Source: Gammaproteobacteria bacterium (GTDB taxonomy: Bacteria > Pseudomonadota > Gammaproteobacteria > Ga0077536). From it: DNA of 41,644 bases. Shown here one piece after another: positions 1 to 15,383 of the stretch. The DNA lies in NCBI GenBank assembly GCA_016874535.1, contig VGUA01000017.1, positions 1 to 41,644 of the forward strand, in the 5' to 3' direction. The notes under the pieces were generated by a model. That model was not told the DNA's origin and searched no databases. It saw only the letters and a list, made by a program, of their open reading frames with translations. A program made the position numbers and the translations under genes. The first letter of the stretch is position 1, and each line of letters starts with the position of its first letter.

Positions 1-41
1 GCCGTCCAGCGCTTGATCTCTTCTTCCATCACGTCGCTCAT
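1..41 (-). CDS. Probable IS3-type transposase orfA, N-terminal fragment (runs off the left edge)
   Basis: Only the first 13 codons are inside the window. They read M-S-D-V-M-E-E-E-I-K-R-W-T on the minus strand. The start is well supported: a purine-rich GAGAAGGAGA Shine-Dalgarno (complement of 49-58) sits 7 bases before the ATG at 41. From memory, the E-E-E-I-K-R-W-T opening is characteristic of the small helix-turn-helix orfA proteins of a group of IS3-like elements, in which orfA recognises the IS ends and partners with an orfB integrase-type transposase. The nearby integrase fits a mobile setting. With so few residues this is recognition of a motif, not a domain call; another HTH protein is possible. 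Confidence 0.42.
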   Translation of the reverse strand, partial: MSDVMEEEIKRWT

Positions 42-309
42 GGGTATGTCTCCTTCTCAACATAGCACCTGAGCAGAAATTCGGTGGGTCGTTACAGCGG
101 AGCCGCCCGATATGACGATTTCCGCATCAGTCCATGAAAGTTGAATGGTCCGCAAACTCGCAATTTCAACGCCCTCAATTTCAGAGATCGCGGGTCGGAT
201 GTAGTTCTCAATAAATACCGAAACGATGTCGCCGGCACGCTCCTCCATGTAGGTCCATGCGTGCTCGCCGCCATCCTCCCGTCCGCCCCAAAGGGGCTCC
301 CCGAAAAGC
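42..309. other. Interval without a supported gene between integrase and left-edge gene
   Basis: A 63-codon frame on the minus strand (57-248) is open and ends just before the Shine-Dalgarno of the left-edge gene. Its only possible start (ATG at 248) has no convincing ribosome binding site. The same frame stays open upstream into the last bases of the integrase gene without any other start codon. It may be a truncated gene or a chance frame crossing the junction of an insertion sequence. I see no recognisable domain in it. Confidence 0.3.
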
Positions 310-1551: not shown

Positions 1552-1557
1552 GAGAAT

Positions 1558-1685
1558 GCGGGTATCGGGGCTTTGATACCCGCAAAGATACCCGCACTTC
1601 TGCGGGATGGCAACGGACGATGCTGGTTATTACAGGACGCTAACCTGCTTGTTCTACAGTGCTTTTTATGCGGGTATCGTCCGTT
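1558..1685. repeat. Repeat array upstream of integrase: four GCGGGTATC units plus a 10-bp inverted repeat
   Basis: The 9-mer GCGGGTATC occurs at 1558-1566 and 1670-1678. Its reverse complement GATACCCGC occurs at 1575-1583 and 1587-1595. The first two units form a perfect 9-bp hairpin with an 8-base loop; the two reverse units are spaced 12 bases apart. A separate perfect 10-bp inverted repeat, AACGGACGAT (1612-1621) and ATCGTCCGTT (1676-1685), encloses a 54-base AT-richer spacer. Position directly before the integrase start suggests recombinase arm or core sites, excisionase or autoregulatory sites, and the integrase promoter. The repeats are seen directly; the function is inference. Confidence 0.7.
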
Positions 1686-1862
1686 TCAGGACTTCGCGGA
1701 ACGCCGATGCTCATTATCGAGCATCAGGATCATGGCGCGCGCAACCCATTGGATGACTGGCAGGGGTCGGCTCGCCGACCCGGGCATCGGGGCCGGCCGA
1801 AGGAGGCGGGCGCCCGAGGGGGCGCATTGTCTCCCAATCGCGGACGGGGGGGAACGCCGGGG
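1686..1862. other. Gene-free remainder between the repeat array and the LLM gene
   Basis: No gene is supported here. I looked for a tRNA, the usual target of P4-type integrases, and found neither a T-loop (GGTTCRA) nor an acceptor stem. A short minus-strand frame ending around 1692 reads like the tail of a protein but has no start or recognisable domain. The G-rich stretch near 1800-1862 has low complexity and no clear terminator. Confidence 0.4.
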
Positions 1863-2834
1863 CTAGCCCCGCATCACCTCGGCAAACGCCTCCAGTTCAC
1901 GCGGGATGTTCTGTCCTGCGGGCTGATAGGCAATCTCTGTCGCACCCTCCGCCTCGAGCGCGGCCAGGCGCTCACGCCATGCCGAACGGCTGGCAGCCAG
2001 ACCCTGTTTGGCGAGCAGATCCCCGGTAACGAAGACCCGGTCGCGATCATTCACACCCACGAGGTGGCCGTCATGCAGTGCGAGATGGCGGGTCTTCTCC
2101 GGGACGGCGTCGTAAACCGCTTTCCAGGCTTCACCGCCTTCAAGGCTTTCCAGTAGGCGGTGTTCCAGCGCGTAGTGAAACATCGTGGCGGCGCCATGCC
2201 CCGCCGCGTCAATGGCGCGCGCGGATCCGGGTGCCTCACCTTCGTCGAGTACCGTGCCCATGATGAGCGCGACGCTCCAGTCGAAACCGCCTACGGCGGC
2301 GAAGGGCGTGAAGATTCCTTGGCCGTGGCTGCGCGCCACTTCCATGCCCTTGGGACCCCCGGCAGCAATCACGAAGGGCACGTCGATGGGACGCTTGGGA
2401 GCATAGCCATCCCAGTGCAGCATCTTGATGACTCCGCCGTCCCATTCCACTTCTTCACCCCGCAGCAGACCCCGCAGTGCCTCGATGTACTGGGTCACGT
2501 AGCGCCAGGTCAGCGGACGCCGGCCCATGCTGACACAGGCGGTGAAGCCCGAACCGATGCCAACCACCACCCGTTCCTGGCCCGCGAGCGACACCAGCGT
2601 GCCGATGGCGGATGCGGTAGTCATGGGGTGGCGCAGATGCGGGATCAGCACACCGGTGGCAAGACGAATCCGGGATGTAATCTCGGCGGCGCGGCACAGC
2701 TGTACCCAGACATCCGGGTAAAGGGGAGGGGAGTCGTAGAACCAGGCGCACTCGTAACTGAGTTCTTCCGCCACCCGGGCGTGTTGATGGGACTGTAGCG
2801 AGGTGGCGAATGCACACGAGAGTTTCATGGCCAT
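1863..2834 (-). CDS. LLM-class (luciferase-like) flavin/F420-dependent oxidoreductase
   Basis: 323 residues with the bacterial luciferase-like TIM-barrel fold. Visible family features are the N-terminal beta-strand and helix (C-A-F-A-T-S), the R-I-R-L-A-T-G-V strand near residue 55, the V-V-V-G-I-G-S-G-F flavin-phosphate region near 90, and P-F-V-I-A-A-G-G-P-K-G near 155. Such enzymes use FMN or F420 to oxidise or reduce small organic substrates in the cytoplasm; the substrate cannot be told from sequence. The ATG at 2834 is preceded by GGGGAGA at suitable spacing; a second ATG two codons later is also possible. It lies alone between an integrase and a broken transporter gene, so it may be part of an acquired segment. 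Whether the cofactor is F420 or FMN is undecided. Confidence 0.82.
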   Translation of the reverse strand: MAMKLSCAFATSLQSHQHARVAEELSYECAWFYDSPPLYPDVWVQLCRAAEITSRIRLATGVLIPHLRHPMTTASAIGTLVSLAGQERVVVGIGSGFTACVSMGRRPLTWRYVTQYIEALRGLLRGEEVEWDGGVIKMLHWDGYAPKRPIDVPFVIAAGGPKGMEVARSHGQGIFTPFAAVGGFDWSVALIMGTVLDEGEAPGSARAIDAAGHGAATMFHYALEHRLLESLEGGEAWKAVYDAVPEKTRHLALHDGHLVGVNDRDRVFVTGDLLAKQGLAASRSAWRERLAALEAEGATEIAYQPAGQNIPRELEAFAEVMRG

Positions 2835-3311
2835 GATCTAGTTCTCCCCGTTGGTTGGTGCGCTTTGGCTTCTTGTGTTCAGGCGCGGCCTGACAGTGAG
2901 GTGACGACCTTTCTTGGCATTTTCACGCGACTGTGCCTGAAATGGAACCGAAGCCGGTTTGCGGTCCGGGCAGGTTGGTTTGCCAACAAATGCCGCGCAC
3001 GCGCTGCCCCACTTCATGTGGTGACGATGAAATCATCGGTGGGAGGAGTGACAGTCCCTCGGGAATGACCAGCGCCAAAACGTCCGACAGTCTCCGCACC
3101 ATTCCCGCCCTAATCGAAAGACATTTCCTCGCTTGCCTGATAGTGGATCAGATGGGCATAGATGGTAGCGCCAGCTGAGAGAACTTGGAGTACTTCGCCA
3201 TCAGCAGCGAAAGTGCCTCGGGCTTCCGGAAATCAATCCCATCGAGCGCAATGCTGATCACCGGTGATACAGTCAGCAGCCGATGAAACAGTCCCTGGAA
3301 TCGTCCGATAC
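2835..3311. other. Long interval without an intact gene; possible decayed coding remnant
   Basis: About 475 bases lie between the LLM gene and the likely start of the MFS gene. On the minus strand, about 3148-3312, one frame reads as a plausible protein tail (for example G-I-D-F-R-K-P-E-A-L-S-L-L-M). After about 3175 a second frame continues plausibly (A-T-I-Y-A-H-L-I-H-Y-Q-A-S-E-E-M-S-F-D) to a stop at 3110. This looks like a frameshifted remnant, but I do not recognise the family. Nothing supportable is seen in 2835-3100. Confidence 0.25.
3257..3268. promoter_or_regulatory. Perfect 12-bp palindrome upstream of the MFS gene (possible operator)
   Basis: ATCACCGGTGAT is a perfect palindrome about 45 bases before the preferred GTG start of the MFS frame. 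It overlaps an alternative GTG at 3264, which argues against that start. Palindromes of this size are typical of dimeric repressor sites, and a TetR-family gene lies just beyond the transporter. The pairing of the two is inference only. Confidence 0.3.
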
Positions 3312-4489
3312 GTGAACACGCGCACGCTTCCGGCCTCCTGGCGCTGGCGTATTCCGGCCTTGGGCATCGCCCAGATCATCGCCTGGGGCTCGATGTTCTA
3401 TGCCATAGCCGTGATGGCAGGCGACATTGCAAGTGAGCTCGGGCTGGCGAGCTCGACGGTGTTCGGCGCGTATTCCCTGAGCCTGGTGATCTCCGGGCTG
3501 GTGGCACCACTCTCCGGCCGCTTGATCGATGCGGGACATTGCCGCGCCGTGCTGGGCGGCTCGTCCTTGCTAGGCGCTGTCGGATTTGCCCTCCTCGCCA
3601 CCACCGATGGGAGCGGCATGCTTTTCCTGGCCTGGGCGATATTGGGTCTCGCCATGGGCACCGGCCTCTATGACGCAGCCTTCGGGGTATTGCACCGCAC
3701 GGTGCCTGCTGCCGGCTATCGTCGCGCTTTGGCGGCTTTGCGAGCACCGTCTTCTGGCCGCTGACCCGGCTGCTGATGGAGCAGGGAGGGTGGCGGCACG
3801 CCGCTTGGGTCTTCGTCGCGCTCCATCTCCTGTGTGCCTTGCCGCTTTATCTGGCCGCGGTCCCGCGTGTGATTGGCCTCCCAATCCAGACCCACGCGTC
3901 ACGCGCGACCGGCCCCGTGCTTTCCAATCTCGCGCAGCGCCGCTTCCGTTGGTTGGCGGCGGCGCTTGCCCTCGCTTCATTCGTGGTGGCGGTCCTCTCG
4001 GCGCACCTCATCACCCTGCTCACTCTCGGGGGATTGCCTGGTGCGCAGGCGATCCTTGTCGGGGCCTTGTTTGGTCCAACCCAGGTTCTGGCGCGGATGA
4101 TTGAATACCTGATGGCAAGTCGGGTGAAAGCGGTGACCGTGGGCAGCTTTGCCTTTGGCGCCCTGGTCGTGGCGCAGCTCGCGCTTGGTCTTTCCGCAGA
4201 CACGCTTCTGCTGCCGGTGCTGTTTGCACTCCTCTACGGCGCAAGCAACGGAATCATGACCATCATCCGCGGGACCGTTCCCGCACAGCTCTTTGCAGAT
4301 GTTTCCGGCTTCGGTGCGCTGCTCGGTCGTCTGGCCCTGCCGTCATTCATTGCCAAGGCTGGCGCACCGTTCGTGTTTGCGGTGCTGCTCGATCAGGGGT
4401 TGTCGAGGGGGATGGGTTGCAGCTTGCTGCTCTGTCTGGCTCTGCTGGCCTCGCTGTGCTTCGAGCGGGCGCGGCGGGTTAAATCTTGA
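3312..4489 (+). pseudogene. MFS transporter gene disrupted by a small deletion/frameshift
   Basis: Two consecutive plus-strand frames together make one major-facilitator permease of about 390 residues, normal for the family. The first (GTG at 3312 or 3264, to 3764) carries the N-terminal half with several hydrophobic helices. These include A-L-G-I-A-Q-I-I-A-W-G-S-M-F-Y and the loop motif G-R-L-I-D-A-G. Around 3720-3735 the correct reading moves to the +2 frame: F-G-G-F-A-S-T-V-F-W-P-L-T-R-L-L is encoded out of frame and continues into M-E-Q-G-G-W-R-H-A-A-W and the C-terminal helices to 4489. At the junction about ten residues expected between the Y-R-R-A and F-G-G-F segments are missing, so a deletion of a few codons plus one or two bases is more likely than a single-base error. 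Without correction no full transporter is made. It would have been an inner-membrane efflux or uptake permease of unknown substrate. Confidence 0.78.
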
Positions 4490-14186: not shown

Positions 14187-15383
14187 CTATTCGACGCGGA
14201 ATGCGGCGATCTTTCCGGACGAGCTGTAACCAAGCAGGGCGCCTCCGATGTCGATCGGCGGCGTGAGAATGCGTTTCTTGTCGATGCGATTGCGGGCCAC
14301 CAGCGCCCCAGTCCGGGCATCCATCCAGTGCAGGTAACCCTCGAAGTCGCCGGTGACGATATAGCCCTGGAAATGCAGTGGCCCGGTCAGCTTGCGGTAC
14401 TGCAGATCCTTGTTGCGCCATACGGCGCTGCCGTCAAACCGGTTGAGTGCCCACACCACACCACGCTCATCGGTGATGTAGACGCGCTCATCGTCCACTG
14501 CGACGTTGTCGTAGGTGGACATGTCGCGTGTCCACTCCACGCCACCCCCATCCGTGGACAAGGCGGCAATGCTGCCTTGGTAGCTTCCAATGTAGAGCAG
14601 GTCATCCTTGAGTACCGCCTCACCATCGATGTCCACGAGACGCTCGAGATCGGAGCGGCCGGTGGGTTGTGCGAGGCGGGTATCCCACAGCTGCTGGCCG
14701 GTATTCAGATCCAGCGCCACCAGCCGGCCGTTGTCGAAGCCGGCATACACAACCCCTTGGTGAATGGTCGGGGAGGCGGTGCCGCGCAGGGTGAGCGTCG
14801 GGATGCTGCGGTCATAGACCCAGCGCTCCAGGCCAGTCTCCACATCCAGCGCGTAGATGTTGCCATCGCCGGTGCGGATGATCACCACGCCTTCCGCCGC
14901 GCGCGGCGCGGCGAGGACTTCACTGGAAACCTTGGCCACCCAGAGCTTCTTGCCGGTCTCCGCATCACGGGCAACGACTTCGGCTTCGGAGGTGCCCACG
15001 AACACCTTGCCTTCGCCCGCACCCGGGCCGCCGGAGATGAGTCGACCCTTGTCCTGTTCGGACCAGCGTTCGTCGCCGCTGCTAGCATCCAGTGAAATCA
15101 TGCGGCCATCACGGTCGGCCGTGTACACATGCTGACCATCAGACGCGGGAACGAGCTTGAGATACAGCGACTCGGTGCCCTTGCCCGCGCGCTCCGACCA
15201 CAGCTCGGTGACCTTGATGGAAGGCTCGAACTTTTTGTCGAGCTCTGTTGGCTTGGTTGCGTCGTCCGCATCGCCATCGTCGCTGAGCCAGCCGGTGGTG
15301 GTCTTCTTGACCTTGGTCATGGTGTCCGCGCATCCACCCAGCAACAAGAGGATGGACAGAACTGCCAGTCCGACGCGGCGCAT
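14187..15383 (-). CDS. bamB: Outer-membrane assembly lipoprotein BamB (YfgL)
   Basis: 398 residues. The signal peptide M-R-R-V-G-L-A-V-L-S-I-L-L-L-L-G-G-C places the lipidated cysteine at 18. The remainder is an eight-bladed PQQ-type beta-propeller, with repeated blade signatures such as G-K-V-F-V-G-T-S-E, G-N-I-Y-A-L-D-V-E-T-G, G-R-L-V-A-L-D-L-N-T-G and A-L-N-R-F-D-G. BamB binds BamA at the periplasmic face and assists beta-barrel protein folding. It begins 3 bases after the yfgM stop and precedes der, the conserved arrangement. Confidence 0.96.
   Translation of the reverse strand: MRRVGLAVLSILLLLGGCADTMTKVKKTTTGWLSDDGDADDATKPTELDKKFEPSIKVTELWSERAGKGTESLYLKLVPASDGQHVYTADRDGRMISLDASSGDERWSEQDKGRLISGGPGAGEGKVFVGTSEAEVVARDAETGKKLWVAKVSSEVLAAPRAAEGVVIIRTGDGNIYALDVETGLERWVYDRSIPTLTLRGTASPTIHQGVVYAGFDNGRLVALDLNTGQQLWDTRLAQPTGRSDLERLVDIDGEAVLKDDLLYIGSYQGSIAALSTDGGGVEWTRDMSTYDNVAVDDERVYITDERGVVWALNRFDGSAVWRNKDLQYRKLTGPLHFQGYIVTGDFEGYLHWMDARTGALVARNRIDKKRILTPPIDIGGALLGYSSSGKIAAFRVE

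Follow-up and report, generated by a model that had tools for sequence, protein, structure and literature searches.

Positions 1552–1733 of the window (the whole analysed stretch of 41,644 nucleotides, contig C17 of a 3.08-Mb, 189-contig assembly) are best read as attL, the int-side attachment site left by an integrative element that uses a P4-type integrase to target codons 1–7 of trpG, a reading to which we give a probability of roughly 0.9. At the level of sequence, it rests on the junctions, the uninterrupted sites, a conserved geometry, the same motif type at both element ends, and a rebuilt trpG reading frame.

The trpG frame of the window is broken off after MILMLDN, enters the element, and ends as a leftover frame, MILMLDNEHRRSAKS, with its stop codon. 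To the right of the junction, nine of the ten proteins scanned have domains of chromosomal housekeeping type (among the genes are queG, phoH, engA, bamB, rodZ, sufS/sufB, valS, and pepA), and we rejected the adjacent LLM-class oxidoreductase gene as a part of the element; a 96% identical ortholog of this gene adjoins the trpG start in the assembly G003. Further to the right, at 3264–4489, an ArsK-like MFS transporter is encoded in two frames, which is probably a pseudogene or a sequencing error. To the left, positions 1–96 (TGTAACGACCCACC...) are repeated as 96-bp copies, 98–100% identical, in contigs C66, C49, and C98 of the same genome. Because the contig begins at position 1, the rest of this insertion sequence is not in the window. 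The interval between it and int gave no match by blastn against the related loci. Since trpG is cut in the window, housekeeping genes follow on the right, and an insertion sequence stands at the left start of the contig, positions 1714–1733 are the edge of an element that extends leftward.

Table 1. Features of the window around the junction; the promoter boxes and the arm-type repeats are predictions.
Feature	Position	Strand	Remarks
Insertion sequence end, repeated (IS3-like by reading)	1..96		contig begins here
Remaining element sequence downstream of int, truncated by the insertion sequence	97..309	-	one frame open throughout
P4-type tyrosine integrase (int), 413 aa	310..1551	-	Arm-DNA-bind_3 + Phage_int_M + Phage_integrase
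Inverted arm-type repeat beside the int start	1557..1566	+	hairpin partner of 1575-1584
Copies of GCGGGTATC	1558-1566(+), 1575-1583(-), 1587-1595(-), 1670-1678(+)		each inside the 10-mer TGCGGGTATC
Tandem pair of arm-type repeats, period 12 bp	1575..1596	-	
Predicted int -10 box, TATCTT	1585..1590	-	overlaps the end of the upstream tandem copy
Predicted int -35 box, TTGCCA	1608..1613	-	17-bp spacer; promoter score 9/12
10-bp inverted repeat, AACGGACGAT/ATCGTCCGTT	1612-1621/1676-1685		spacer 54
Fourth arm-motif copy, single, between core and int	1669..1678	+	
Core: codons 1-7 of host trpG (ATGATCCTGATGCTCGATAA), then element sequence	1714..1733	-	
Perfect 107-bp match to the start of C45	1714..1820		C45 runs on into intact trpG-trpD-trpC
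Native trpG leader, chromosome side of the junction	1734..1862	-	
LLM-class oxidoreductase, chromosomal gene upstream of trpG in the lineage	1863..2834	-	

The initial annotation had proposed searching the flanking contig for a second copy of 1612–1685 and comparing the region with empty sites. A search of the source genome with positions 1552–1862 yielded a second, perfect copy of 1714–1820, which stands at the start of C45 and runs on into an intact trpG (assigned with the trpG_papA model TIGR00566; trpD and trpC of C45 were named by reading). We infer that C45 is the empty site of other cells, and the assembly is most simply read as coming from a mixed population in which some sites are filled and others empty. 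A constant assembler overlap was rejected as the origin of this 107-bp copy: no fixed overlap length emerged when 20 contig ends and 18 contig starts of the genome (a further two read N) were set against one another and against C17 and C45. The sole further end-to-end overlap, between C17 and C60, measures 159 bp, contains one SNP, and fits a strain mixture. An assembly named Geobacter (a MAG) is, by its sequence, a second one holding both states, with a filled junction (L093) and an element-free trpE–trpG contig (L207) that agree in 172 of 174 flank bases. In G003, the closest relative, the trpG start is broken at the same codon (C252, about 389–433; loci L032 and L247), and unrelated non-trpG sequence without clear arm repeats follows; a search of that assembly recovered no trpG and almost nothing of trpD.

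C17 and C45 carry the only trpG junctions found in the source assembly, so the other end of the window's element is missing from it. In agreement with this, a search with the arm-pair pattern matched only C17 and one site in C18 with three mismatches. The far end described below is accordingly deduced from relatives and is putative for the window's own element.

Genes for tRNAs are frequent targets of P4-type integrases, and the initial annotation had pointed to the lack of a visible tRNA beside the integrase. This holds: ARAGORN detected neither tRNA nor tmRNA genes across the window and the initial 20 kb of C45, and within the window no Rfam family reached the gathering threshold. On these results we rejected a hidden tRNA target. 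The 3′ end of a tRNA or tmRNA gene, by which tRNA-targeting islands are recognized, does not occur at the junction. Likewise, a direct repeat beside a tRNA, named earlier as an observation that would speak against a non-tRNA site, did not appear in the own-genome search with 1552–1862, a search that a lone 20-bp core would escape.

To place the junction in a wider context, we compared 107 integrase loci, namely the window, 80 loci from an integrase scan of genome contigs, and 26 from the family of the source genome (among the 29 matches listed for that family, 26 were used besides the window, and L185 and L192 were dropped for lack of an N-terminus). The total includes two weak loci, L116 with no upstream sequence and L176 with only 180 bp. 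A trpG start lies 175–203 bp upstream of int and in the same orientation in 15 of the 107: the window, L086–L095, L097, L098, L121, and L132. The reversed signature, used as a control, occurred at 1/107 loci, at the limit of six mismatches; three family loci that match the true signature only at six mismatches were excluded from the 15. L103 escaped the signature on account of additional codons in its TrpG start. On inspection by eye, L103:3500–4120 contains a trpG start with a tandem-repeat leader before it and another attL after it, an arrangement suggestive of two elements placed in tandem at a single trpG.

In an integrase tree of 106 rows, the 15 trpG rows cluster, requiring 4 changes against 14.2 with shuffled labels (0/500 as low); the tree was built by a quick method with a simple model and no bootstrap, gave long-branch warnings, and scored L103 as "other" despite its trpG start. 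The carriers are, by name, mostly Beta- and Gammaproteobacteria, together with one alphaproteobacterium and the Geobacter-named MAG. The gene ending before the junction is trpE (TIGR00564) in five of the nine loci scanned (L087, L088, L092, L093, and L097) and another gene in the remaining four (L086, L090, L094, and L132). At L086 and L132, the gene for a GxxExxY-family protein lies some 60 bp upstream of the core. The Lautropia genome that carries L097 also has a second element, L096, outside trpG; its site has TGATCGAAAA in common with the trpG core and is probably a secondary attachment site. Among 29 loci from viral contigs, 18 lacked enough upstream sequence, and 3 of the 11 usable ones (L216, L218, and L242) have the trpG signature; the trpG gene itself was seen in none of the 29. 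At L217, where the integrase is 58% identical, no trpG start precedes int.

The repeats that drew attention to this region, four copies of a 9-mer, a hairpin, and a 10-bp inverted repeat beside a P4-type integrase, are all present. The hairpin has a perfect stem and an 8-nt loop. In 2000 dinucleotide-preserving shuffles of 1552–1740, a three-copy 9-mer arose five times and a four-copy one never, which places the four copies far beyond chance; the remainder of the 41.6 kb contains a single further copy of GCGGGTATC, at 14676. The integrase is indeed of P4 type, as its three domains and an alignable 42% identity with P4 Int indicate. By reading, a single copy resembling the fourth arm motif is found at L086, L087, L090, and L092 and is not evident at the others. 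The 10-bp inverted repeat was rejected as a functional unit, the pair not being kept, by reading, in the attL sites of relatives; judged by sequence, it is probably incidental with the exception of its int-proximal half, GTCCGTT, which lies directly before the -35 box and has a counterpart in P4. Words of the type GTCC/TTCG, spaced by about 10–11 bp, recur between core and arms in the relatives, in the window (1600–1712), and in P4 (3966–4077), and are possible candidates for excisionase sites.

A sigma70-like int promoter with its -10 box at the first copy is predicted with a score of at least 8/12 in 12 of the 15 loci, and the mean score is 8.2 at these 15 loci against 6.1 in mononucleotide shuffles. 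L091, L098, and L121 have no good int promoter at attL. The GCGGGTATC copies would serve as arm-type sites for the N-terminal Arm-DNA-bind_3 domain of the integrase, and since the predicted -10 box of int extends into the upstream tandem copy, int should be repressed by its own product when this is bound.

The far end of the elements was sought upstream of trpG in 17 genomes reached via 18 loci, a set outside of which the genome of L121 lies. The gene was found in 16 of them; G047, the genome of L098, yielded none. Thirteen of the searched genomes have a trpG-type junction, and twelve trpG loci were read. Ten of the twelve (L195–L198, L200–L203, L205, and L208) have an element-borne leader before trpG. 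As for the other two, trpG of L207 is uninterrupted after trpE, and L199 offers only 39 bp before trpG, which is too short. Six of the ten filled leaders, judged by equal contig size, share a contig with their integrase, corresponding to elements of about 8, 9, 29, 32, 34, and 47 kb as reckoned from coordinates. L213 and L214 are small (8–9 kb), satellite-like elements at trpG; both encode DUF3987 primase-like proteins, and one encodes PriCT_2. A scan of 10 proteins from the cargo of two small relatives gave HD_4 in one and one weak PADLOC match.

All ten filled leaders contain a tandem with a 12-bp period, with 0–2 mismatches between copies, starting 74–76 bp before trpG. At the other end, a tandem of the same period lies near int in 15 of 15 attL sites; the initial annotation had held that an absence of the repeats beside orthologous integrases would count against it, and there they are present. 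The motif types match at both ends, GGGTAT with GGGTAT and CCGGATAA with CCGGATAA, with no cross-type match at one mismatch. Within the GGGTAT type, exact 9-mers are not pair-specific, and the agreement between ends partly reflects shared ancestry. Eight of nine native leaders have no motif copy at one mismatch, the ninth (L062) having a single one. Furthermore, a sigma70-like TTGAGN-16/17-GAYAAT is present in 7/10 filled leaders, with its -35 box about 150 bp before trpG, and missing in 3/10; none of the seven native leaders of sufficient length contains it (two more are too short). Other, partly overlapping sequence totalling 2.09 Mb has six occurrences, a count that includes L213, which overlaps one of the seven leaders.

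In the ten filled relatives, trpG is open, without stops, its frame being restored at the far junction. At its end, each element leader supplies a new ATG and, in frame with trpG, the initial codons (MLLMIDN), so that integration rebuilds trpG. Since the far end supplies a replacement start codon and the first trpG codons, the native leader is parted from the gene and trpGDC stand behind the element leader. The element itself seems to drive trpGDC, by the predicted promoter.

These far ends bear on two other ways of reading the window. If C45 represented the opposite end of the window's integrated element, its perfect 107-bp copy of the trpG leader would be the direct repeat that an integrated element is expected to have at both ends, and the assembly does have one trpG junction besides that of the window. 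We consider this quite improbable: the 87 bp of C45 before trpG, too short to show or exclude a leader promoter, hold no arm repeat, against one at about 74 bp in 10/10 filled leaders; the C17/C60 overlap, with its SNP over 159 bp, fits a strain mixture; and a second genome is alike, with only two differences in 174 bp between L093 and L207. A very improbable alternative, too, is that the array is solely an operator/promoter of int, made of repressor-bound repeats and a hairpin without a part in recombination, and that the trpG junction is coincidental. The predicted -10 box does overlap the array, and the inverted copy would fall in the 5′ leader of the int mRNA; against a purely regulatory role stand the 12-bp-period tandem of the same motif type at the far end, 8 to 47 kb away and about 74 bp before trpG, and the annotation of the equivalent repeats of P4 as attP arms.

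The frequent use of tRNA genes by P4-type integrases would allow for an element with its true target in a tRNA gene, or another RNA gene, at some other place, which came to lie here by rearrangement. This is contradicted by the conserved junctions, with no tRNA at this site and the same trpG core beside int in 15/107 loci, and its probability is close to nil. For the preferred reading, an attL in the start of trpG, the earlier suggestion of a non-tRNA attachment site or an unusual regulatory region needs amending in one respect. The evidence points to both functions, but the array is not unusual, P4 being annotated alike; the less usual part is the target, the 5′ end of trpG, and not the layout of the array.

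The position of strand exchange can be narrowed by a pair of ends from Lautropia, L097 and L208, whose cores in attL and attR disagree at positions 6, 9, 13, and 18. On its left side, through position 17, the L208 attR equals that of L205, whose element is nearly identical but sits in a different host; on its right side, the L097 attL matches that of L132. Since these two sides recur in other carriers, they belong to the element, and the exchange falls in positions 14–17. With the host base at position 13 in attL, one sharply informative pair thus suggests exchange within the TCGA of core positions 14–17; the other attL/attR pairs, less sharp, do not contradict it.

From these observations, a mechanism can be proposed. 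The integrase would insert the element into codons 1–7 of trpG by exchange within the core, and the far end would bring a second motif tandem, usually a sigma70-like promoter, and a replacement trpG start. Bound to the arm repeats, integrase would cover its own predicted promoter and repress int. Binding, promoter activity, repression, and excision are all predictions from the DNA. More speculatively, tryptophan synthesis might be tied to the state of the element, trpGDC standing behind the element promoter and integrase, or an intasome, on the far-end arms blocking their transcription; we regard such coupling as conceivable, though rather doubtful. The far-end tandem, about 74 bp before the trpG start, does lie between the gene and the predicted promoter, whose -35 box is about 150 bp upstream. 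If the coupling is true, the predicted repression of int at one end would be mirrored by a block of trpGDC at the other.

A sister clade has the start of surE (MRILLSN) at the position of the trpG start. To this clade belong the nearest enteric relatives of the trpG group, L102, L106, and L109 with the viral loci L224, L225, L239, and L243, as well as L248, L249, and L251; the upstream sequence reads like truD. Intact surE genes with a 12-bp-period tandem leader at the same distance occur in Pantoea and Intestinirhabdus genomes, and Xenorhabdus has a similar repeat pair before surE; no tandem leader was found at Yersinia surE. With the same tandem geometry at surE, the coupled model would have the lineages differ mainly in which 5′ end is held hostage.

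Several consequences follow for the annotation and study of such elements. Where a trpG start next to an integrase looks broken, auxotrophy does not necessarily follow. The predicted arm-site pattern, with its strict 12-bp period, can be used for finding both ends of an element, and tryptophan independence offers an easy phenotype for testing the coupling of integration and host expression.

Among known systems, the closest parallel is P4. The P4 core belongs to a tRNA gene; here, the core is the start of trpG, and in relatives the far side brings a new gene start. In the P4 record (NC_001609), attP is annotated with one tandem of 12-bp period upstream of int, a copy in inverted orientation where int begins, the core, and a second tandem beyond the core. 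The window likewise has a 12-bp tandem upstream of int and an inverted copy at the int start, together with an Arm-DNA-bind_3 integrase, and the core lies about 150–180 bp from int in both. In relatives, tandems flank the core on both sides as in P4, 10/10 filled trpG leaders having the far-side one. In contrast, the arm sequence is TTGGGGGCAT in P4 and TGCGGGTATC in the window. A similar arrangement of the int promoter is described in excerpts of a study of intS of KplE1 (CPS-53), where the promoter and attL overlap, the -10 box coincides in part with an arm site, and the gene is negatively autoregulated (PMC2951348). The predicted int -10 box of the window is overlapped by an arm site in the same way, repression being shown in KplE1 and predicted here. 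Unlike the window's element, KplE1 is inserted in a tRNA gene, argW.

Phage-derived DNA near trpG has been described before. Excerpts of earlier work place the R/F-pyocin cluster of Pseudomonas aeruginosa between trpE and trpG (PMC8609362, PMC7344871) and include trpG in WX-3, a predicted prophage region of Pseudomonas (PMC12456005); set beside the window by their descriptions only, these excerpts describe no attachment site in the trpG start. A full-text search of mostly open-access literature found no report of trpG as an integrase target, and a term search of the Integrase-On-Demand paper returned no mention of trpG. In the excerpted account of IMEVchUSA3 in dusA and SXT in prfC, the elements insert at the 5′ end of the gene and supply a promoter and an N-terminus (PMC8409611). 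As in these two cases, the junction of the window lies inside the first codons of a protein gene, and the target gene differs. The kind of insertion is known and trpG as its target appears to be new, so that the 5′ end of a core biosynthetic gene joins the landing sites of P4-type integrases.
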